A DNA stretch of 9,364 bases from Pseudomonadota bacterium (GTDB taxonomy: Bacteria > Pseudomonadota > Gammaproteobacteria > Burkholderiales > Thiobacillaceae). This document shows, in pieces, positions 1 through 9,364 of this stretch (positions within the stretch are counted from its first letter, which is position 1; every line of letters starts with the position of its first letter). Position numbers and translations under genes: made by a program. Location of the stretch: NCBI GenBank assembly GCA_021802595.1, contig JAJZRT010000101.1, forward strand, positions 1 to 9,364. Reading direction: 5' to 3'. The notes beneath the pieces are model-generated. The model searched no databases. It was not told where the DNA came from and saw only the letters and a program-made list of their open reading frames with translations.

Positions 1-1
1 C

Positions 2-58
2 ATCCTGGGTGGGGAGAGCTATCCCGCACTGGCCGAGGGGCTGCAGAACGCGCTCTTC
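2..58 (+). pseudogene. IS21-family IstA transposase fragment, cut by the transposon end
   Basis: The frame starting at base 2 reads ILGGESYPALAEGLQNALF and then runs straight into the 38-bp inverted repeat at base 59. The GGESYxALAxGLQNAL stretch is characteristic of the catalytic core region of IS21-family IstA transposases, where it is normally followed by (W)xLGGxPxEHRxD. Here the frame continues into transposon sequence and stops at 113-115. Only 19 codons are visible and the 5' part is outside the window, so neither the full element nor the presence of istB can be judged. The family call rests on motif memory over a short segment. It shows that the left flank of the transposon was an insertion sequence rather than merD, which forms the right flank. 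Confidence 0.7.
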
Positions 59-96
59 GGGGTCGCCTCAGAAAACGGAAAAAATCGTACGCTAAG
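59..96 (+). repeat. 38-bp terminal inverted repeat at the tnpA end of the Tn21-subfamily transposon
   Basis: The repeat begins GGGGTCGCCTCAGAAAACGG and ends GTACGCTAAG. It starts with GGGG and contains the TCAGAAAACGGAAAA core of Tn21/Tn501-type ends. It pairs with 5895-5932 in opposite orientation at 35 of 38 positions. The tnpA stop codon (TAG, - strand, bases 92-94) lies inside it, as in Tn21 and Tn501. Confidence 0.95.
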
Positions 97-3058
97 CCGG
101 TTGCAGCGGCCGTAGCGGCCTGAACTTGCCCGCGCCGATCTTGGCGCTGCTGCGCCAGAGGTAATCGCCGGTCAGGTTGATGTGTTCCCAGCCGAGCGGC
201 GACAGGTACTGCAACAGCGCCTCATCGACGGCATGACCGTTACCGCGCAGCGCATGCGCCGCCCGTTCCAGATAAACCGTGTTCCACAGCACGATGGCTG
301 CCGTCACCAGATTGAGGCCGCTGGCCCGGTAGCGCTGCTGCTCGAAACTGCGGTCGCGGATTTCACCCAGGCGGTTGAAGAAAACGGCACGAGCCAGCGC
401 GTTGCGGGCTTCGCCCTTATTCAGCCCGGCATGTACGCGGCGGCGCAGCTCGACGCTTTGCAGCCAGTCGAGGATGAACAGCGTGCGTTCAATGCGGCCC
501 AGCTCACGCAAGGCCACGGCCAGGCCGTTCTGGCGCGGATAGCTCCCGAGCTTGCGTAGCATCAGCGAGGCCGTCACCGTACCCTGCTTGATCGAGGTGG
601 CCAGCCGCAGGATTTCATCCCAATGGGCGCGGACGTGCTTGATGTTGAGCGCGCCGCCGATCATCGGCTTCAACGCCTCGTAGGTGGTATCGCCCTTCGG
701 TATGTAGAGCTTGGTGTCGCCCAGGTCACGGATGCGCGGCGCGAAGCGGAAGCCCAAGAGGTGCATCAGGGCGAAGACGTGATCGGTGAAGCCTGCCGTA
801 TCGGTGTAGTGCTCCTCGATGCGCAGGTCGGATTCGTGGTACAGCAGGCCGTCGAGCACGTAGGTCGAGTCGCGAACTCCGACGTTCACGACCTTGGTGT
901 GGAACGGCGCGTACTGGTCGGAGATGTGGGTATAGAACGTCCGTCCTGGGCTGCTGCCGTATTTCGGATTGATGTGGCCAGTGCTCTCGGCCTTGCTGCC
1001 GGTGCGGAAGTTCTGACCATCCGACGACGACGTGGTGCCGTCGCCCCAATGCTCGGCGAAGGGATGCCGGAGCTGCGCGTTGACCAGCTCAGCCAGCGCC
1101 GTCGAGTAGGTTTCATCACGGATGTGCCAGGCTTGCAGCCAGGCGAGCTTGGCATAGGTCGTACCGGGGCAGGATTCGGCCATCTTGGTCAGGCCGAGAT
1201 TGATCGCGTCGGCCAAAATGGTGGTCAACAGCAGATTCTTGTCCTTGGCCAAGTCGCCCGATTTCAGGTGCGCGAAGTGACGGGTGAATCCCGTCCATTC
1301 GTCCACCTCCAACAGCAATTCGGTGATCTTGACGTGCGGCAGAATCATCGCCGTCTGGTCGATTAGTGCCTGCGCGGTATCGGGCACCGCCGCATCGAGT
1401 GGCGTGATTTTCAGGCCCGACTCCGTGATGATGGCGTCCGGCAACTCGTTGGCCAGCGCCATGCGGTTAACGGTGGCGAGCTGCGTTTCCAGCAGCGTCA
1501 GCCGTTCATGCAGGTACTGGTCGCAGTCGGTAGCCACGGCCAGCGGCAATTCGCTGGCCTGCTTGAGGCTGGCGAATTTCGCGGGCGGCACCAGGTAGTC
1601 CTCGAAGTCCTTGAACTGGCGGGAGCCTTGCACCCAGATGTCGCCGGAAAGCAGCGCGTTCTTCATCTCCGACAACGCGCACAGCTCGTAGTAGCGCCGG
1701 TCGATGCCGGTGTCGGTCATGACCAGCTTCTGCCAGCGCGGCTTGATGAAGTCGGTCGGCGCATCGGCGGGCACCTTGCGGGCGTTGTCGCTGTTCATGC
1801 CGCGCAGCACCTCGATAGCGTTGAGTACGTCCTTGGCAGCGGGCGCGGCCCGCAGCTTGAGCACGTCGAGAAGTTCCGGCGCGTAGCGGCGCAAGGTCGC
1901 ATAGCTCTCGCCGATGCGGTGCAGGAAATCGAAGTCCTCTGGCTGGGCTAGCTTTTGTGCCTCGGTGACGCTTTCGGCGAAAGCGTCCCAGGACATGACA
2001 GACTCGATGGCGGCGAACGGATCGCGGCCCGATTGCTTGGCGTCGATCAGCGCCTGGCCAATGCGTCCGTACAGGCGCACCTTGGCGTTGATGGATTTGC
2101 CAGATGCTTGGAACTGCTGCTGATGCTTGTTCTTGGCGGCGTTGAACAACTTGCCCAGGATGCGGTCGTGCAGGTCGATGATTTCATCGGTGACGGTGGC
2201 CATGCCTTCGATGGCCAGCGCGACCAAGGTGGCATAGCGGCGTTTCGGCTCGAACTTGGCCAGGTCGGCAGGTGTCATCTGGCCGCCCTCGCGGGCGATC
2301 CTGAGCAAGCGGTTTTGGTGTACCTGCCGTTCGATGCCAGCAGGCAGGTCAAGTGCATGCCAGGCTTTGAGGCGTTCGATGTGTTCGAGCATGTGCCGCG
2401 AATTCGGCTTGGCCGGAGACTGGCGCAGCCAAGCCAGCCAGGTCATCTTGCCGTTGTCCCGGCGCTTGAGCAGATCGTCGAGGCGGCGGCGATGCGCGTC
2501 CGATAGCGGTTCCGCCAAGGCGTCGTATATGCGCCGGTTGGCGCGGGTGATCGCTTCGGCGCTCGCCCGCTCGACGGCGTTGAGGGCAGGCAGAATGACT
2601 GACTGCCGTCGCAAGTGCTCGATCAAGGCGCCGGCCAACACGATGCCCTTGTCGGTCTGCATGGCCAGCTCGGTCAACGTGTGGACGGCCTGCCGGTAGT
2701 GGCTCATGGTGAACGCCTGGAAGCCGAACACCGTTTGCAGCTCGACCAGGTGCTCGCGCCGGGTCTGCTCCCGCTGCCCGTACTCGTCCCAGCTTTCGAC
2801 GCTGACCTTGAGTTGGTCGGCGACCAGCTTCAACAAGGGCGGAAACGGCGGCTCTTCGACGCCAAGGATGGCACCGGGAAAGCGCAGGTAGCAGAGCTGC
2901 ACGGCGAAGCCCAGGCAGTTGGCAGGCCTGCGCCGCTGCCGAATGATGGCAAGGTCAGTATCGCTGAATGTGTAATGTCGAATCAGGTCGTCCTTGGTGT
3001 CCGGCAACGCCAACAGGCTTTCCCGCTCGGCGGCGGACAGTATGGAACGACGAGGCAT
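92..3058 (-). CDS. tnpA: Tn3-family transposase TnpA (Tn21/Tn501 type, full length)
   Basis: This 988-residue DDE transposase cuts and joins transposon ends to form the cointegrate in replicative transposition. The length equals that of the Tn21 and Tn501 TnpA proteins, and the N-terminus [19 protein letters not shown] and C-terminus [12 protein letters not shown] are typical of that subfamily. The N-terminal half should recognise the 38-bp repeats. The catalytic half has the expected triad: D680 in SSSDGQ, D753 in YTDTAGFTD and E883 in NKGEARNAL, spaced 73 and 130 residues as in relatives. No frameshift or stop is visible. It begins 2 bp after the tnpR stop, with no strong ribosome-binding site, so it is probably translated by coupling from tnpR mRNA. 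Its stop codon lies inside the left inverted repeat. Function is inferred from the family; integrity is directly visible. Confidence 0.97.
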
Positions 3059-3060
3059 TG

Positions 3061-3621
3061 CTATTGATCCAATCTCAAGTATTGATACAGGGTCTCCCGG
3101 CTGACACCAAATTCACGTGCCAGCTTCGCCTTCTGCTCACCGGCAGCGGCCCGCTGCCGCAGCTCGGCGACCTGTTCGGGCGACAATGCCTTCTTGCGGC
3201 CCCGGTAGGCTCCGCGCTGTTTAGCGAGCGCGATGCCCTCTCGCTGCCGCTCGCTTATCAAGGCCCGCTCGAATTCCGCGAACGCACCCATGACCGATAG
3301 CATCAAGTTCGCCATCGGCGAATCCTCGCCGGTGAAGGTCAGACTCTCCTTGACGAACTCGATGCGCACGCCGCGTTTAGTCAGCCTTTGCACAAGGCGG
3401 CGCAAATCATCGAGGTTGCGCGCTAGCCGATCCATGCTGTGAACCACCACGGTGTCGCCTTCGCGCACGAAGGCCAGCAGCGAATCGAGTTCAGGCCGCT
3501 GGGTGTCCTTGCCCGACGCCTTGTCGGTGAATACCCTGCCGACTTCGACATGCTCCAGTTGCCGTTCCGGGTTCTGGTCGAAGCTGCTGACCCGGACATA
3601 GCCGATGCGTTGACCCTGCAT
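3061..3621 (-). CDS. tnpR: Serine resolvase TnpR (Tn21/Tn501 type)
   Basis: This 186-residue serine recombinase resolves the cointegrate at res and normally represses its own promoter there. The N-terminal catalytic domain contains [10 protein letters not shown] with nucleophile Ser12, HSMDRLARN and the [22 protein letters not shown] segment. The C-terminal helix-turn-helix is [17 protein letters not shown], residues about 165-182. The frame is open 20 codons further upstream (to base 3681), but the start at 3619-3621 is preferred: GGAGG lies 7 bases before it, the protein then begins [12 protein letters not shown] like its relatives, and the upstream codons fall in res and the promoter. It is transcribed with tnpA, the genes being 2 bp apart. 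No key residue is missing, so it should be active. Confidence 0.96.
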
Positions 3622-3652
3622 GATGCCTCCAAACACGAAAGTGTCAGGAAGA

Positions 3653-3681
3653 AATCTATGACATTTCGCCGCAGGTGTCAA
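3653..3681 (-). promoter_or_regulatory. tnpR-tnpA promoter inside res
   Basis: Read on the - strand, a perfect -35 TTGACA (3676-3681) is followed after exactly 17 bp by TAGATT (3653-3658). It lies about 32 bases upstream of the tnpR start. It overlaps res subsites II and III, which would let bound TnpR repress its own operon, as known for Tn3-family resolvases. Promoter strength and the transcription start have not been measured. Confidence 0.65.
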
Positions 3682-3721
3682 TAAACGCGAAAGCCAACTC
3701 TATTCTGACGTTGCAGTGTGG

Positions 3722-3743
3722 CCTATCCTGACATCAGGATAGG
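3722..3743. repeat. Perfect 10-bp inverted repeat with a 2-bp centre beside the res crossover subsite
   Basis: CCTATCCTGA (3722-3731) and TCAGGATAGG (3734-3743) are exact reverse complements separated by CA. The right arm also forms the left half of candidate res subsite I. The perfect dyad may be an accessory binding site or an imprint of a recombination between related res half-sites. Confidence 0.8.
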
Positions 3744-3788
3744 GTATGCTTTATCTTGACATACCCGGTTCAAACGTATCGGATCATA

Positions 3789-3824
3789 ATATGAGTTGCA
3801 ATTCATATGTGTTGACACTAATAT
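3789..3824 (+). promoter_or_regulatory. Candidate promoter and operator of the cargo operon
   Basis: A 20-bp near-perfect palindrome, ATATGAGTTGCAATTCATAT (3789-3808), has one mismatched base pair and is the right size for a winged-helix ArsR-family dimer. Its centre TTGCAA (3796-3801) can act as a -35, followed after 17 bp by TAATAT (3819-3824). Transcription would then start near the regulator's ATG at 3831, giving a nearly leaderless message, which fits the lack of a clear Shine-Dalgarno sequence there. ATATGA recurs at 3821-3826. A TTGACA at 3812-3817 and another at 3756-3761 are alternative -35 boxes, but neither has a good -10 at normal spacing. This assignment is inference. Confidence 0.5.
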
Positions 3825-3830
3825 GATGGT

Positions 3831-4202
3831 ATGAAATTTCCAGAACGCGATCAAGAGCAAATCATTCCGGCGCTCAAAGTGCTGGGAGAACCAAATCGCC
3901 TCCGCATCTTGTGTGGCCTGGGCTTCGAATGCCGTCCGGTAACGGACATCATCAACGCGACGGGCCTGGCGCAAACCAATGTCTCGTTCCACTTGCGTGT
4001 GCTGCGCGAGGCGGGATTCGTCCGCGCGGAGCGGCGCGGGCCGTTCATCTATTACTGCCTTGCCGACCCGGAACTGCTGCGCATCCTGCGCGACCTCAAG
4101 CAATGGTTGGACACCCGCCAGACGCCGGTCGCGGGAATGTCCGATCAATCCAGCCGCCCAGCCGATCCCAAATCGGCGTTGGCAGAAACCGAGGGGGTGT
4201 AA
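3831..4202 (+). CDS. ArsR/SmtB-family metal-responsive transcriptional repressor, first gene of the cargo operon
   Basis: This 123-residue winged-helix regulator starts with the family pattern ALKVLGEPNRLRIL (residues 14-27). The helix-turn-helix follows, with recognition helix near QTNVSFHLRVLREAGFV (48-64), then the wing ERRGPFIYYCL (67-77). Family members dissociate from operator DNA on binding metal or metalloid ions. The usual ELCVCDL arsenic site is absent; the candidate soft-metal ligands here are C28, C34 and C76, so the inducer cannot be named. The C-terminal 30 residues are polar and probably flexible. It sits next to res, reads away from tnpR, and is followed 2 bases later by the SHOCT gene, so it should autoregulate the whole operon through the palindrome upstream. 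The start codon lacks an obvious ribosome-binding site, but no other in-frame ATG fits the family N-terminus. Confidence 0.88.
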   Translation: MKFPERDQEQIIPALKVLGEPNRLRILCGLGFECRPVTDIINATGLAQTNVSFHLRVLREAGFVRAERRGPFIYYCLADPELLRILRDLKQWLDTRQTPVAGMSDQSSRPADPKSALAETEGV

Positions 4203-4204
4203 TC

Positions 4205-4462
4205 ATGAGGCCTTATGGTCCGTGGGGATGGTTTCCTTTCATGTGGATATTTCCGCTGATCTTCCTGGTCGTGATGCTGATCCTCCTCTTCCGCGGCGAA
4301 CGCGGAGGCGGGGGTTGGCCGATGTGCGGCGGGTGGGGAATGCGTGATGAAGGAACGCGTGACAAGAAAGAAGAAAGCGCAAAAGACATTCTCGACCGGC
4401 GTTACGCCCGTGGGGAAATCACCCGAGAGGAGTATCAGCAAATGAAGAAGGAGCTCGAATGA
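4205..4462 (+). CDS. Small single-TM protein with a C-terminal SHOCT domain
   Basis: The protein has 85 residues. One hydrophobic segment (about residues 9-29, WFPFMWIFPLIFLVVMLILLF) is followed by a Gly/Trp/Met-rich linker with one cysteine (GGGGWPMCGGWGM, 34-46). A typical SHOCT motif ends the protein: AKDILDRRYARGEITREEYQQMKKEL (59-84). SHOCT domains occur in many small membrane or oligomeric proteins and have no catalytic function of their own. The frame is open far upstream, through the regulator gene, but the ATG at 4205 is preferred because GAGGGGG lies just before it and it begins two bases after the regulator stop. Its stop overlaps the next start as ATGA (4459-4462). The Met/Cys/Trp-rich linker might contact a soft metal, but that is speculation. 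Confidence 0.85.
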   Translation: MRPYGPWGWFPFMWIFPLIFLVVMLILLFRGERGGGGWPMCGGWGMRDEGTRDKKEESAKDILDRRYARGEITREEYQQMKKELE

Positions 4463-5064
4463 TGACGATTCAGGACAGGCTGTTTCCGGCCACGGTGATG
4501 CCCGACAGGAACTGGTGGCACGCCTTGTGGCCCGATCCCGACGGCGTGATCAAGGCGTTGGGTATCGCGCCCGGAATGACGGTCGTCGATCTGGGCTGCG
4601 GCTACGGCTACTTCACCGCCGCCATTGCGCGACAGCTTGGGCCGGGGCGCGTCGTCGGCTTCGACCTCGATCCAGACATGCTGGAGCAGGCGCAAGCGGC
4701 TTGCGAGGGGCTGGCGAACTGTGACTGGCTGCGCGGAGACGCCATGGAGCTAAGCCGCCTGGTGGGCGCGCCGGCGGACTATGTCCTGATCGCCAACACC
4801 TTCCACGGTGCCCCGGACAAGACGGCGCTGGCCCGAGAGGTTGCCGCCGCCTTAAAGCCAAATGGCCGTTTCGCCATTGTCAATTGGCATCCCCTGCCGC
4901 GCGAAGAGACGACCGTCCTGGGCCAGCCACGCGGGCCAAGCACCGAACTGCGCATGTCGCCGGAGCAGACCCGCGCGGTGGTTGAGCCGACCGGCTTCAA
5001 GCTGGAATCGCTGGTCGAGTTGCCGCCCTATCATTACGGGGTGATCTTTGTCCGCGCAAACTGA
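4459..5064 (+). CDS. Class I SAM-dependent methyltransferase
   Basis: This 201-residue protein has a Rossmann-type SAM-binding fold. Motif I is VVDLGCGYGYF (42-52). The acidic ribose-binding loop is GFDLDPDML (67-75), motif II lies near WLRGDAMEL (about 90-98), and a motif III-like strand is LKPNGRFAIVNWHP (about 132-145). It resembles the UbiE/Methyltransf_11 type. It is much shorter than ArsM arsenite methyltransferases and lacks their set of conserved cysteines: its only cysteines are C47, inside motif I, and two more near residues 82 and 89. Calling it arsM would therefore be wrong, though a metal, metalloid or small-thiol substrate is possible given the operon. Translation is probably coupled to the SHOCT gene through the ATGA overlap. 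It is followed 18 bp later by the CxxC gene. The substrate is unknown. Confidence 0.88.
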   Translation: MMTIQDRLFPATVMPDRNWWHALWPDPDGVIKALGIAPGMTVVDLGCGYGYFTAAIARQLGPGRVVGFDLDPDMLEQAQAACEGLANCDWLRGDAMELSRLVGAPADYVLIANTFHGAPDKTALAREVAAALKPNGRFAIVNWHPLPREETTVLGQPRGPSTELRMSPEQTRAVVEPTGFKLESLVELPPYHYGVIFVRAN

Positions 5065-5082
5065 TTCAAAAAGGAGTGAACC

Positions 5083-5361
5083 ATGGCCCACAATCATGAC
5101 GAAATCATCGAACACTACAACCGCTTTCATACGGCCGTCTACGGCCCCGATGGCGTATTGGACCGGAAGACGCGCCACCTGATCTGTCTCGGGGCGGCGC
5201 TGAGTGCGGGCTGCGAATTCTGCACGAAATACGCCCTCGGCGTGCTCCGGGAACTCCAGGCCAGCGATGCCGAGATCGACGAGGCGATCAGCGTCGCCAT
5301 GACCGTGGGCGCGAGCAACCCGAGGCTGCTAGCCAAGAAAGTCCGAGCTGAAAATCCATAG
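5083..5361 (+). CDS. Carboxymuconolactone-decarboxylase/AhpD-like protein with a CxxC pair
   Basis: This 92-residue, all-helical small protein matches the CMD domain: VLDRKTRHLICLGAALSAGC (25-44) is followed by C44-E-F-C47 and a helix TKYALGVLRELQASDAEIDE, then MTVGASNPRLL. In AhpD-type enzymes the pair is CxxCxxxH, and the cysteines with the histidine act in thiol-disulfide or peroxide reduction. Here the position of the histidine is Ala51, so classical AhpD chemistry is doubtful. The cysteine pair could still be redox-active or bind metal. The N-terminus MAHNHDEIIEHYNRFH is His-rich. A good ribosome-binding site (AAGGAG) precedes the ATG. It lies 18 bp after the methyltransferase and 40 bp before the Met-rich gene, all on one strand. 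CMD proteins often form trimers or hexamers. The partner reductase is not in the window. Confidence 0.85.
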   Translation: MAHNHDEIIEHYNRFHTAVYGPDGVLDRKTRHLICLGAALSAGCEFCTKYALGVLRELQASDAEIDEAISVAMTVGASNPRLLAKKVRAENP

Positions 5362-5401
5362 CGACGGCAGAACCAATCGAGTCATTCACCAGGAGACCAA
5401 C

Positions 5402-5794
5402 ATGGAACCGAAAGACCAGGACACCAAGGCAGGCGGCGAATCGCAGCCTGGGCAAGGCGGCGGATTCAATCCGATGGGCATGATGAAAAAGATGATGGAG
5501 AAAATGATGTCCGGCATGATGACGCCGGAGGACATGCCTCGCATGATGCAAACCATGATGGACAGCATATTCAAGGAAATGAGGGCGGAGGATCGAGCGG
5601 AATTCATGCAGAACATGATGCCGCGCTGCATGTCCATGATGTTTTCGGAACTGGATATGGAGGCGCGCCGAGCATTGGCTGAGGCGATGCTTCAGCGCAT
5701 GATGGACGAGCTGAAGGGTCAGCGTGATGCCGCCGCGCCGGCTGCTGGCCCCGCTGAAGGCGCTGCTCCTGCCGCCGGGATCGCCAAGGAATAA
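5402..5794 (+). CDS. Methionine-rich cytoplasmic protein, candidate soft-metal binder
   Basis: The protein has 130 residues, 26 of them Met (20%), including nine MM pairs. Pairs at 27/28, 31/32, 35/36 and 39/40 recur every four residues, and 48/49 and 52/53 continue this, which would line thioethers along one face of a helix. A single cysteine (C76) lies in NMMPRCMSMMF. The first 24 residues are polar and Gly/Gln-rich, and the last 22 are Ala/Pro-rich and low in complexity. There is no signal peptide or TM segment, so it should be cytoplasmic. Met clusters are known ligands for Cu(I), Ag(I) and Hg(II), but no function has been shown here and I do not recognise the family. AGGAG precedes the start, and it is the last gene of the cargo operon, ending 100 bp before the right inverted repeat. 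The coding call is strong; the metal-binding role is inference. Confidence 0.82.
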   Translation: MEPKDQDTKAGGESQPGQGGGFNPMGMMKKMMEKMMSGMMTPEDMPRMMQTMMDSIFKEMRAEDRAEFMQNMMPRCMSMMFSELDMEARRALAEAMLQRMMDELKGQRDAAAPAAGPAEGAAPAAGIAKE

Positions 5795-5894
5795 TTACCT
5801 GAGCACGGGTGTAACGGGTAATGCCAGACATTTCTCCGGCATCGTCGACGCCTGCCCTTGCGCGGGCTGATTACGTCATGGAGCTGAGGAACGA

Positions 5895-5932
5895 CTTAGC
5901 GTACGATTTTATCCGTTTTCTGAGACAACCCC
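5895..5932 (-). repeat. 38-bp terminal inverted repeat at the cargo end of the transposon
   Basis: On the + strand it begins CTTAGCGTACGATTTTATCC and ends TGAGACAACCCC. It is the inverse of 59-96 with three differences, at 5911, 5925 and 5927. The difference at 5911 (A on the + strand) creates an in-frame TAA for the truncated merD reading frame that enters it from the right. Confidence 0.95.
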
Positions 5933-5968
5933 ATTAAGGGCCAGGCGGGACACTGTGTAGGCGTTCAT
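5909..5968 (-). pseudogene. merD: merD remnant: first 12 codons joined to the transposon end
   Basis: Directly downstream of merA, a strong ribosome-binding site (AAAAGGAGG) is followed by an ATG at 5966-5968 and the codons MNAYTVSRLALN. This is the N-terminus of MerD from Tn501/Tn21-type operons, which continues DAGVSVHIVRDY. At codon 12 (bases 5933-5935) the sequence passes into the 38-bp inverted repeat, adding GVVSENG and a TAA at 5909-5911, so the product is a 19-residue peptide. MerD is a MerR-like co-regulator that helps switch the mer operon off. Its loss, together with anything downstream such as merE, should leave resistance working but may slow return to repression. The recognition of merD rests on known family sequence and on its position after merA. 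Confidence 0.9.
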
Positions 5969-5985
5969 CGAACACCTCCTTTTCC

Positions 5986-7734
<1,749 letters not shown>

Positions 7735-7742
7735 TCAGTGGC

Positions 7743-8018
7743 TCACTTCTTGACGCTGGACGGATACCCCGCGTCCTCAGTCGCCTTGGTCAGTTTCTGC
7801 ACGCTGGTTTTGGCATCATCGAAGGTGACAACCGCTTCGCGTGTCTCGAAGGTCACATCAACTTTGCTGACGCCTTCGACCTTGGAAATCGCCTTCTTGA
7901 CGGTGATCGGACAAGCGGAGCAGGTCATGCCCGGCACAGACAGCGTGACGGTCTGGGTGGCGGCCCACACGGGGGCAACAATCGTAGCGAGGGCGAGGGA
8001 TGCAAACAGTTTTTTCAT
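7743..8018 (-). CDS. merP: Periplasmic mercury-binding protein MerP
   Basis: This 91-residue precursor has a signal peptide of about 19 residues ending APVWA|A. The mature domain is a heavy-metal-associated ferredoxin-like fold with GMTCSAC, where C33 and C36 bind Hg(II) in the periplasm and hand it to MerT. The length matches the usual 91 residues of MerP. A strong ribosome-binding site (AGGAG) lies just before the ATG. It lies between merT (15 bp upstream) and merA, in the order merT-merP-merA typical of Tn501 and Tn21; the merC of Tn21 is absent. Nothing in it looks damaged. Confidence 0.97.
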   Translation of the reverse strand: MKKLFASLALATIVAPVWAATQTVTLSVPGMTCSACPITVKKAISKVEGVSKVDVTFETREAVVTFDDAKTSVQKLTKATEDAGYPSSVKK

Positions 8019-8033
8019 GATGAACTCCTGTGA

Positions 8034-8381
8034 TTAATAGAAAAATGGCATGACGTAGGGAAATCCGAGCGCGACCAGAACCAGCGCGGCCACTAACCAG
8101 AAAATGAGCTTGTAAGTAGCTCGCACTTGGGGAGTCGCGCAGATCTCACCCGGTTTGCAGGCTTGCGCTGGGCGGTAGATACGCCGCCAGGCAAAGAACA
8201 GCGCCACCAACGCCGCGCCGATAAAGATGGGGCGATAAGGTTCCAACACCGTCAAGTTACCGATCCACGCGCCGCTGAACCCCAAGGCGATCAAAACCAG
8301 TGGCCCCAGGCAGCAGGCCGAGGCGAGGATGGCGGCCAGCCCTCCGGCGAAGAGCGCTCCGCGCCCGTTTTGTTCAGACAT
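8034..8381 (-). CDS. merT: Mercuric ion transporter MerT
   Basis: This 115-residue inner-membrane protein has three hydrophobic segments (about residues 10-37, 52-66 and 90-112). The first carries the adjacent pair C23-C24, which receives Hg(II) from MerP. A second pair, C75 and C81, sits in the cytoplasmic loop and passes the ion to MerA. The usual length is 116 residues. The frame is open 22 codons further upstream, to 8447, but those codons cover the mer promoter and operator. The start at 8379-8381 is preferred because AGGA precedes it and the protein then begins MSEQNGRGALFAGG as in relatives. It is the first gene of the operon and is controlled by MerR through the promoter at 8417-8447. 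Confidence 0.97.
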   Translation of the reverse strand: MSEQNGRGALFAGGLAAILASACCLGPLVLIALGFSGAWIGNLTVLEPYRPIFIGAALVALFFAWRRIYRPAQACKPGEICATPQVRATYKLIFWLVAALVLVALGFPYVMPFFY

Positions 8382-8404
8382 ACGCTTGTCCTTTCGAATC
8401 TGAA

Positions 8405-8434
8405 TTGGATAGCCTAAGATTACTTCCGTAGTCA
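8405..8434 (+). promoter_or_regulatory. Candidate merR promoter, divergent from and overlapping the merT promoter
   Basis: TTGGAT (8405-8410) and TAGTCA (8429-8434) lie 18 bp apart on the + strand, at the place where Tn501/Tn21 operons have the merR promoter (-10 TACTCA in those). The -10 lies inside the MerR operator, so MerR binding should repress its own gene. The match is modest, and the call rests mainly on position in a well-studied operon. Confidence 0.5.
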
Positions 8435-8447
8435 TGTACGGAGGCAA
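8417..8447 (-). promoter_or_regulatory. merTPA promoter with MerR operator in a 19-bp spacer
   Basis: On the - strand, -35 TTGCCT (8442-8447) and -10 TAATCT (8417-8422) are separated by 19 bp, the over-long spacer that MerR-family activators untwist when Hg(II) binds. The spacer holds the dyad CCGTAC-ATGA-CTACGG (8426-8441). Classic operators read GTACGG in the right arm, so one outer pair is broken here. The -35 and -10 also differ from the Tn501 TTGACT and TAAGGT. GGAGG of merR (8440-8444) overlaps the -35. Confidence 0.88.
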
Positions 8448-8452
8448 GCGAT

Positions 8453-8881
8453 ATGCAAACTATTTTTGAGAATCTGACCATCGGCGTTTTTGCCAAGGCG
8501 GCCGGGGTCAATGTGGAGACCATCCGGTTCTATCAGCGCAAGGGCTTGCTGCCTGAGCCGGACAAGCCCTATGGCAGCATTCGTCGGTATGGCGAGGCGG
8601 ATGTAACGCGCGTGCGGTTCGTCAAATCAGCCCAGCGGCTGGGTTTCAGTCTGGATGAAATCGCGGAACTACTCAGATTGGACGATGGCACGCACTGCGA
8701 CGAAGCCAGTCACCTGGCCGAGCACAAGCTTCAGGACGTGCGCGAAAAAATGGCCGACTTGGCGCGCATGGAGACCGTGCTTTCCGAACTGGTGTGCGCC
8801 TGCCATGCGCGAGAGGGGAACGTATCCTGTCCGCTGATTGCGTCACTGCAAGGCGGATCAAACCTTGCAGTGACGGTGTAG
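8453..8881 (+). CDS. merR: Mercury-responsive regulator MerR
   Basis: This 142-residue regulator represses the merT promoter without mercury and activates it with Hg(II). The N-terminal winged helix-turn-helix (residues 8-40) has [20 protein letters not shown], followed by [14 protein letters not shown] and a dimerisation helix ending near residue 115. The three Hg(II) ligands are present: C82, C117 and C126 in the pattern known for Tn501 MerR. The start at 8453 is supported by GGAGG eight bases upstream. Relatives have about 144 residues; here the last residues after CPLIASLQG (GSNLAVTV) differ from the sequences I know, and the DNA encoding them forms a perfect 13-bp hairpin. This tail lies after the metal site and should not prevent function. 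It is transcribed divergently from merT. Confidence 0.96.
8841..8875. repeat. Perfect 13-bp stem, 9-base loop hairpin in the last codons of merR
   Basis: CGTCACTGCAAGG (8841-8853) is the exact reverse complement of CCTTGCAGTGACG (8863-8875), with a 9-base loop between them. It lies within the merR coding sequence, ending three bases before the stop codon. No T-run follows on either strand, so it is not a standard intrinsic terminator. It may be a rearrangement scar, a recombination target or a bidirectional RNA structure. Confidence 0.85.
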
Positions 8882-8917
8882 GGTAGTGGCTGGCTTTGGT
8901 ATGAAACCGTACCACCG

Positions 8918-9175
8918 TCAGGCATCGTATGGGAAGCGTGAGGTGCGGATGACCATTGACTGCCCGTCTACCTCCGAGTAGACAAGGAGCCTGGCGGCGG
9001 CCAGATCGAGCAAGGCAAACACGTATTGGTTGAGATAGGCGCCTGGCAGATCGATGAAGCGCTCGAGTACCACGATCCCGATCTCCTGGTTGCGTTCGCT
9101 CCAACGTTCGACGAAACGGATGAAGCCGATGCGCCGCCCGCGCGCAGTCGTAAGGGTGCGCAGGTTGACCGCCAT
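8918..9175 (-). CDS. Unrecognised small ORF between merR and an ISL3-like transposase
   Basis: The open frame runs on the - strand and stops at 8918-8920. The best start is ATG at 9173-9175, giving 85 residues from MAVNLRTLTTARGRR; a TTG at 9211 gives 97, and the frame stays open further upstream into the transposase gene. The sequence has a plausible protein composition (FIRFVERWSERNQEIGIVVLERFIDL; AYLNQYVFALLDLAAARLLVY), with no obvious signal peptide, membrane span or metal motif. I do not recognise it. It lies downstream of, and on the same strand as, the transposase fragment and could be an accessory ORF of that insertion sequence, a degraded gene fragment, or chance coding. Upstream, GGGGG sits too close to the ATG to be a good ribosome-binding site. 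The stretch 8882-9243 otherwise holds nothing I can identify. Confidence 0.3.
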   Translation of the reverse strand: MAVNLRTLTTARGRRIGFIRFVERWSERNQEIGIVVLERFIDLPGAYLNQYVFALLDLAAARLLVYSEVDGQSMVIRTSRFPYDA

Positions 9176-9243
9176 CCCCCTTCGCCGATAGCGAAGCCCC
9201 CTGGCGCGCAACCGCGCTTCGAATTTGAAACGAAAGAGGCTCC

Positions 9244-9363
9244 TCAGTAAAATTCGTGGGCGAGTTTCGGTTCGGGAAGCCTGCCCAGGGCATGTAATAG
9301 CGCCATTTCCAGGATCTCCGGGGAGCGGAATCCATAGGATTTTCGCAGGGTCAGTTTTGCCTT
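9244..9363 (-). CDS. C-terminus of an ISL3-family-like transposase (runs off the window)
   Basis: The last 39 codons of a larger gene are visible, ending KSYGFRSPEILEMALLHALG, RLPEPKLAHEFY and a TGA at 9244-9246. RKSYGFRxxxxLExALxHxLGxLPEP is the typical end of ISL3-family (DDE_Tnp_ISL3) transposases of proteobacteria. The catalytic residues lie outside the window, so activity cannot be judged. The gene reads toward merR, so one end of the insertion sequence should lie between 8881 and 9243. The family assignment rests on motif memory over a short segment. Confidence 0.6.
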   Translation of the reverse strand, partial: KAKLTLRKSYGFRSPEILEMALLHALGRLPEPKLAHEFY

Positions 9364-9364
9364 G

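Follow-up and report, generated by a model that had tools for sequence, protein, structure and literature searches.

A mobile, recurrent gene cassette for an ArsR-family regulator, a small methyltransferase and a methionine-rich protein

BigR and SqrR, which we take to be ArsR-family reactive-sulfur switches that accompany persulfide dioxygenase operons and carry a Cys pair on helices α2 and α5, are among the closest described counterparts of the gene cassette analysed here. The cassette consists of five genes, coding for an ArsR/SmtB-family regulator, a small SHOCT-domain membrane protein, a class I S-adenosylmethionine (SAM)-dependent methyltransferase (MT1), a CMD/AhpD-like protein and a Met-rich protein (MetA), and lies in a 9,364-nt stretch of a Pseudomonadota genome (family Thiobacillaceae; assembly GCA_021802595.1, contig JAJZRT010000101.1, positions 1 to 9,364), hereafter the window. 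Like BigR/SqrR, the window regulator has an ArsR fold and two conserved Cys, and its relatives are found beside an operon for a metallo-β-lactamase (MBL) protein, a probable persulfide dioxygenase, and a major facilitator superfamily (MFS) protein; unlike them, it stays below the cut-off of the BigR sulfite-sensing repressor profile (NF040642; 36.9 vs 155 bits), has its Cys pair at C34/C76 and has a methyltransferase operon as its commoner target.

Among enzymes, MddH and MddM1 are small methyltransferases that S-methylate H2S and methanethiol, with MddM also described in the same source (PMC12904073). By description they resemble MT1 in being small cytosolic SAM methyltransferases (MddM1, 210 aa) with a link to sulfide stress, but differ in that the portion of that paper covered by our search mentions neither a Met-rich partner nor a CMD protein. 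A family of fused ArsM/AhpD proteins appears in a table of a 2026 selenoprotein review (PMC13188914); the search also brought up another review of selenoproteins, PMC9312934. With Tn21-type mercury transposons the window shares tnpA, tnpR, terminal inverted repeats (IRs) and the cargo position, but the cargo inside its IRs is not mer and there is no 5-bp target duplication. The mer, ars, cop and czc operons are likewise mobile and under metalloregulator-family control; unlike them, the cassette encodes neither a metal ATPase nor, as the initial annotation had noted, an efflux pump or a metal reductase. The adjoining mer operon was omitted from that annotation.

The cassette is real, recurrent, mobile and, within the reach of our literature search, undescribed: in the open-access literature no paper on the gene set was found (subscription papers lay outside the search), the mentions seen in PMC10694973 being unrelated or confined to its reference list. 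This agrees with the initial annotation, which could match the set to no resistance operon. We infer its function from linkage and operator-like DNA. The operon probably copes with toxic sulfide-type or soft-metal stress, and we tentatively favour, from sequence comparisons, a mobile ArsR-controlled module for reactive-sulfur-responsive methylation.

A core of regulator, methyltransferase and Met-rich protein

All five open reading frames (ORFs) are open on the + strand with gaps of 2, −4, 18 and 40 bp, and stretches resembling ribosome-binding sites precede genes 2 to 5 (e.g., aaggag at the CMD gene and aggaga at the Met-rich gene), which bears out the gene positions and translation signals first annotated. 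Pfam assigned four of the five proteins (HTH_5/HTH_20, SHOCT, Methyltransf_25 and CMD). The five genes recur in window order in three other genomes (L001, L003 and L006); in L006, the Met-rich protein is of the B form, and both tnpR and a matching IR are present. In another locus, L002, which meets a contig end there, arsR is the only gene missing, while L044 is a damaged copy in which arsR is cut by the locus start, MT1 is split over two frames, and ORFs of 510 aa and 258 aa lie ahead of CMD. The co-directional arrangement, the Tn21-type cargo position and this recurrence agree with a transposon-borne module as first proposed; the core genes defined below also co-occur without nearby tnpA/tnpR.

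Scanning genome contigs with MT1 gave 53 loci, L001–L047 at an identity of at least 41% and six others that were weak. An even draw of 369 genomes from the class of a Halomonas contained MT1 in 16 genomes (17 copies) and, when searched with MetA alone, MetA in eight; in 8/8 of these, the matched stretches of MetA and MT1 are 23–30 nt apart (Fisher p 1.6e-12). Counting either C-terminal form of the Met-rich gene (A or B), 11/17 MT1 copies have one nearby (within 1.5-kb flanks, which contig ends shorten in some cases). The regulator type (E ≤ 1e-22) was present in 14/369 genomes, nine of which also possess MT1, and in eight of these nine it is located 101–1188 nt from MT1 (p 6.6e-11), with a glutathione S-transferase (GST)-type gene in between in 3/8 (the L083 one Pfam-checked). 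Tiny Met/Cys-rich ORFs (51–59 aa, KMCKEMMANM...) lie between the GST-type gene and the regulator in L083 (9962–10117) and L085 (7806–7985).

A broader survey took MT1 loci from all sources and thus not at random; 89 MT1 sequences entered and 71 were kept, the window included, after L044, L046, L048–L053, L057–L061, L079, L080 and L094–L096 had been dropped by length or score. Near MT1 in these 71 loci are the regulator (23), SHOCT (18), any Met-rich gene (17; a joint count, since similar N-termini make the MetA and MetB labels overlap), P-type ATPases (11), a second, ArsM-like methyltransferase termed MT2 (7), CMD (5), dioxygenase-type MBL genes (5) and permeases (3). Because these partners turn up in deep, scattered branches of the MT1 tree, and CMD is limited to sequences with 84% or more identity to the gene in the window (plus the 38% relative in damaged L044), the core comprises ArsR, MT1 and the Met-rich protein, with SHOCT and CMD as additions. 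This core is older than the transposon. The initial annotation of the cassette as one system therefore holds for the linked core, whereas the five genes are not inseparable.

That the transposon merely gathered five unrelated hitch-hikers is very improbable. Related backbones do carry very different cargo (L057 and L061), and CMD and SHOCT are frequently absent, but the three core genes are linked across deep MT1 branches and in contigs without nearby tnpA/tnpR, and for the core the MetA–MT1 adjacency contradicts the idea.

Sampling elsewhere gave MT1 in 2/337 genomes of an alphaproteobacterial draw and in 10/300 genomes (13 copies) of a draw from a single order. No match was found in 20,395 E. 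coli records for the cargo (near mode) or MT1–CMD (distant mode), or in 50,697 phage records at E ≤ 1e-20; viral contigs yielded a single distant, partial match. Searching 72,556 plasmids with the cargo in near mode matched only 48 bp upstream of arsR, and distant mode matched 94 records, the best being arsR–shoct of Ideonella (73%) and the others, among the best 25 of 94, MT1 pieces or short end stretches; an MT1 homologue of at least 60% identity was not found in these plasmids. A protein search returned 1680 MT1 relatives at E ≤ 1e-20; some with 78–88% identity, named from Enterobacter hormaechei and Citrobacter, suggest that MT1 occurs beyond mine sites. The E. hormaechei entries for MetB, MT1 and CMD (P0026, P0123 and P0169) have a common longest contig of 9871 bases, which suggests a single cassette. 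On an Ideonella dechloratans plasmid (L079, 7958–11279), the cassette arsR and SHOCT genes are followed by an IS21-like element, adjoined by a chlorate reductase cluster.

The methyltransferases and their companion proteins

MT1 is predicted with a class I fold (pLDDT 91, pTM 0.89), and its invariant residues include W19, D94, N113, H116, R158, R165 and H192 (46 sequences; also in a set of 44). Its fold neighbours are mostly small-molecule methyltransferases, the nearest being 3dh0, of unknown function, and those of its relatives that are named, among 120 listed, have generic names ("class I SAM-dependent methyltransferase") or UbiE-type labels. ArsM enzymes bind arsenic through Cys in GCGNP and SNC motifs. 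An assignment of MT1 as a canonical arsenite methyltransferase was rejected, as it scores 50.1 against the ArsM cut-off of 263 bits (NF008823) and keeps one conserved Cys, Cys47 in motif I.

The Met-rich protein, 20% Met, has one invariant Cys, Cys76, among invariant Met residues; a modest model places helices at 24–39, 44–59, 62–81 and 86–110, and Pfam (E ≤ 0.01), NCBIfam and PDB sequence searches found no relative. Its A and B forms differ at the C-terminus, with a common N-terminus in some copies. Given that MetA is MT1's neighbour in 8/8 genomes, with start/stop overlap in L083 and L085, and that Cys76 is invariant, MT1 might act on protein and methylate its Met-rich partner (e.g., at Cys76), which would then work as a metal or sulfur buffer. 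We regard this as improbable: 6/17 MT1 copies have no Met-rich gene nearby (some at contig ends), and neither 3dh0 nor the mostly small-molecule fold neighbours hint at a protein substrate. In Halomonas L008, a MetB gene and one for a protein with a GDCCVFC motif lie downstream of MT1; in Thauera sp. K11 pTX1 (L060, 7266–8530), a run of cadR, a MetB-type gene and a gene for a GDCCVxC (seleno)protein extends to a matching IR, without MT1.

The CMD protein (PF02627, 52.6 bits) has its CxxC at C44/C47, a motif present in 30/30 homologues examined of 39 found. In AhpD, a proton-relay Glu and His surround the CxxC; the window protein lacks this relay, with His32 for the Glu and Ala51 for the His in an alignment to 1vke. 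It matches the C-terminal domain of the fused selenoprotein family NF041537 (89.7 bits), whose N-terminal part is matched by MT2 (L091, L045 and L015; 227–243 bits), MT2 of L045 scoring slightly better with its relative NF041536. From these matches, the two halves of the fused family appear to occur separately as MT1 neighbours. At the positions of GCGNP and SNC in the ArsM-type gene of L004, MT2 reads AVGNP and SNG/SNA, and because it lacks these two Cys, the "arsenite" of the NF041537 family name should not be transferred to it on sequence similarity. The cassette itself was rejected as an NF041537 fused selenoprotein, since its genes are split, it has Cys rather than selenocysteine, and MT1 (52 bits) and CMD both fall below the 510-bit cut-off.

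Regulator, operator-like DNA and neighbouring genes

The regulator belongs to the ArsR/SmtB family (PF01022, 41.3 bits against a cut-off of 22; NF033788, 74.1 against 55) and stays below the TsoR cut-off (NF045707; 69.3 vs 115 bits). Classical ArsR arsenite sensors have a CxC metal site in helix α3; that assignment was rejected here, as there is no CxC and the Cys residues at 28, 34 and 76 are each single. Only C34 (19/19) and C76 (19/20 aligned) are conserved. In winged-helix proteins, the strand ahead of α3 pairs with the last wing strand, and C34 and C76 could therefore be neighbours.

Upstream of arsR lies a near-palindrome, ATATGAGTTGCAATTCATAT, a probable operator. Its half-site ATATGAG occurs in 11/19 upstream regions of related arsR genes, against 0.45 expected (Markov null), wholly upstream of the start in 10 and overlapping it in one; these 19 regions are related by descent, and for L024 and L084 the arsR start is an approximation. 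A fixed-spacing operator pattern was found in only 1/19 regions, and so we claim only the half-site. The sigma-70-like sites around arsR are weak ones and occur on either strand.

Five genomes of the 369-genome draw have the regulator with no MT1 match (L150–L154). In L150, MT1 is fragmented close to a contig end; in L151 and L152, the regulator is divergent from the MBL + MFS operon. Their arsR/MBL spacers and, on the arsR side, those of the MT1-type loci L091 and L084 have CTCATATGTGTAT-like DNA in common, 0/200 shuffles being as good for each pair. Against the PDB, the L152 MBL protein scores 145 bits with 3r2u, 141 with 3tp9 (MBL + rhodanese), 97 with 4ysb, 69 with BpPRF and 62 with ETHE1 (labelled persulfide dioxygenase). 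We take 3r2u to be CstB, and most of these best matches to be persulfide dioxygenases. A PDB chain named hydroxyacylglutathione hydrolase 3 scores 67 bits and other glyoxalase II chains 51 or less; the neighbouring MBL protein is probably, though not firmly, a persulfide dioxygenase. In L153 and L154, the regulator is near genes for a small membrane protein and a long NapH/GltD-profile protein, with a Cu-type ATPase gene ~5 kb off, possibly a third setting of this regulator type.

We favour reactive sulfur because the regulator also sits on this probable persulfide dioxygenase + MFS operon, with similar operator-like DNA, and because MBL/MFS, DsrE and TusA-type genes lie near some MT1 loci and homologues. 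Related MBL + MFS genes (E ≤ 1e-40) are near MT1 in L005, L082, L083 and L085, as well as in L142, there with DsrE, and TusA, DsrE and MBL genes lie close to the haloarchaeal homologue L054. A gene belonging to one and the same cluster follows MT1 in L034 and L036, the L036 copy being TsuA/YeeE-like, below the TsuA cut-off.

Under this reactive-sulfur reading, Cys34 and Cys76 would sense sulfide, persulfide or a thiophilic agent, releasing the repressor from ATATGAG-type operators. MT1, to which the Met-rich protein would be bound as a subunit, would then transfer the SAM methyl group to sulfide, persulfide or a thiol (or alternatively to a soft element held by thiols) to give a less toxic, diffusible product; the CMD CxxC dithiol may carry or re-reduce the substrate, and the SHOCT protein may anchor the system at the inner membrane. 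Possible but doubtful is the further proposal that (i) MT1 and the Met-rich protein, a four-helix family of its own, make up a new two-subunit methylating enzyme in which thioethers of the Met-rich protein hold a soft ion or substrate while the methyl group is transferred, (ii) the C34/C76 ArsR represents a novel sensor class governing reactive-sulfur methylation as well as oxidation (by the persulfide dioxygenase), and (iii) the whole is a mobile tolerance cassette for sulfide (or organometal) built by a Tn21-type transposon. If true, a single testable function could be given to a class of small methyltransferases, a Met-rich partner and a new ArsR sensor site, and methylation of sulfide or organometal would share its type of transposon with mercury resistance.

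Several observations count against the role in reactive-sulfur methylation. The core link is not exclusive: MT1 often occurs alone, 31/71 MT1 loci having none of the partners searched for (some through contig ends), and in Thauera a MetB-type gene is found with no MT1. At the operator level, ATATGAG runs into the start codon of arsR in L089 and also in L151, one of the two MBL-type loci, and comparisons with L089 and L150 are weaker (0 to 40/200 shuffles as good). The MBL operon is found at only two regulator loci; the L152 MBL protein scores 67 bits with a "hydroxyacylglutathione hydrolase 3" chain, above ETHE1, and in NCBIfam GloB (71–76 bits) ranks above Blh (58–59), both below cut-off. Metal genes are commoner than sulfur genes around MT1. 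P-type ATPases outnumber dioxygenase-type MBL genes (11/71 vs 5/71 loci), and in a comparison of 17 MT1 windows (246 kb) with 20 hand-chosen windows (360 kb) in eight of the same genomes, a metal set was present in 7/17 MT1 windows (controls 1/20; 15/47 contig loci) and an MFS/MBL/YeeE/sulfide:quinone reductase set in 3/17 (controls 0/20; 6/47 contig loci), the p of 0.014 (0.005 without resistance-nodulation-division pumps) being flattering as the queries were drawn from MT1 loci. Multicopper oxidase genes also occur in L054, as in L055, and methionine suits Cu(I)/Ag(I).

A rather doubtful but live alternative, along the lines first proposed, is a soft-metal(loid) module whose regulator would respond to Hg, Cu, Ag, As or similar elements. 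The Met-rich protein would bind the element and MT1 methylate it, the product leaving by diffusion or an ArsP-like permease, and CMD would give reducing thiols as in the fused ArsM–AhpD selenoproteins. In systems already described, permeases of the ArsP type export methylated metalloids, which is why a methylated metal(loid) product is a rival; SO_0444/ArsP_1-type permeases occur near MT1 in L083, L085 and L147, and these neighbourhoods, together with the P-type ATPases, a MerC-type protein (L095) and multicopper oxidases (L005 and L024), support such a module. So do the mer operon adjoining the cassette in the window and in L002, the MetB-type gene after cadR in Thauera L060, the MT2 and CMD matches to both domains of NF041537 ("arsenite methyltransferase/AhpD"), and the Met content of the Met-rich protein. 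Against it stand the low ArsM score and single conserved Cys of MT1, the lack in MT2 of the GCGNP and SNC Cys, metal genes that vary by locus, and the presence of the regulator type on the MBL + MFS operon. The soft-metal sensing first annotated is thus supported by the commoner metal neighbours but, given this second regulator setting, becomes only one option.

Transposon backbone and setting

The window contains a Tn21-type transposon, with TnpA, TnpR and paired terminal IRs (Table 1). Its tnpA/tnpR DNA shares 90% identity with a Tn3-family transposase/recombinase pair in Cupriavidus metallidurans plasmid records and 89% with records annotated "Tn21 family". The five genes, between tnpR and the right IR, are the entire cargo. 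As the 5-bp flanks do not match (TCTTC left, ATTAA right), the present ends are not those of a simple single insertion.

Table 1. Features of the 9,364-nt window
Feature	Position	Strand	Remarks
Left terminal inverted repeat (IRL)	59–99	+	41 nt, 90% complementary to 5892–5932
tnpA, Tn3-superfamily (Tn21-type) transposase, 988 aa	92–3058	−	Pfam DDE_Tnp_Tn3, NF033527
tnpR, serine resolvase, 186 aa from ATG 3621 (TTG 3681 also open)	3061–3621	−	Pfam Resolvase + HTH_7
Near-palindrome ATATGAGTTGCAATTCATAT, probable operator, upstream of arsR	3789–3808	+	9/10 pairs, read by eye
ArsR/SmtB-family regulator, 123 aa (core)	3831–4202	+	HTH_5/HTH_20; Cys34, Cys76 conserved
Small membrane protein, C-terminal SHOCT domain, 85 aa (accessory)	4205–4462	+	PF09851
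MT1, class I SAM-dependent methyltransferase, 201 aa (core)	4459–5064	+	Methyltransf_25
CMD/AhpD-like small protein with CxxC, 92 aa (accessory)	5083–5361	+	PF02627
MetA, Met-rich protein, 130 aa, 26 Met, invariant Cys76, four predicted helices (core)	5402–5794	+	
Right terminal inverted repeat (IRR)	5892–5932	+	Cargo boundary; related copies in L002, L006, L057, L060
mer operon: merA, merP, merT (−), merR (+)	5986–8881		Outside IRR

The mer operon starts 53 bp beyond the right IR, outside the cassette, and resembles common plasmid mer operons (best plasmid rows ~89% identity over 84% of the query); L002 repeats the cassette–IR–mer order and has a second IR past merR. At the end of the window, an ORF of at least 148 aa (8918–9364, − strand) runs off the sequence and has no Pfam or NCBIfam match at E ≤ 0.01. 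Enterobacter ludwigii pEL-ars2 (L061) has the same backbone (TnpA 93%, TnpR 97%) with another cargo, of ArsR, ArsC, P-type ATPase and CBS protein genes. A related transposon on an Azotobacter salinestris plasmid (L057), with tnpA 85% identical over the longest piece and an IR with one mismatch to IRL, carries genes for ArsR, DsrE, MBL, MFS, rhodanese and a distant methyltransferase (32%).

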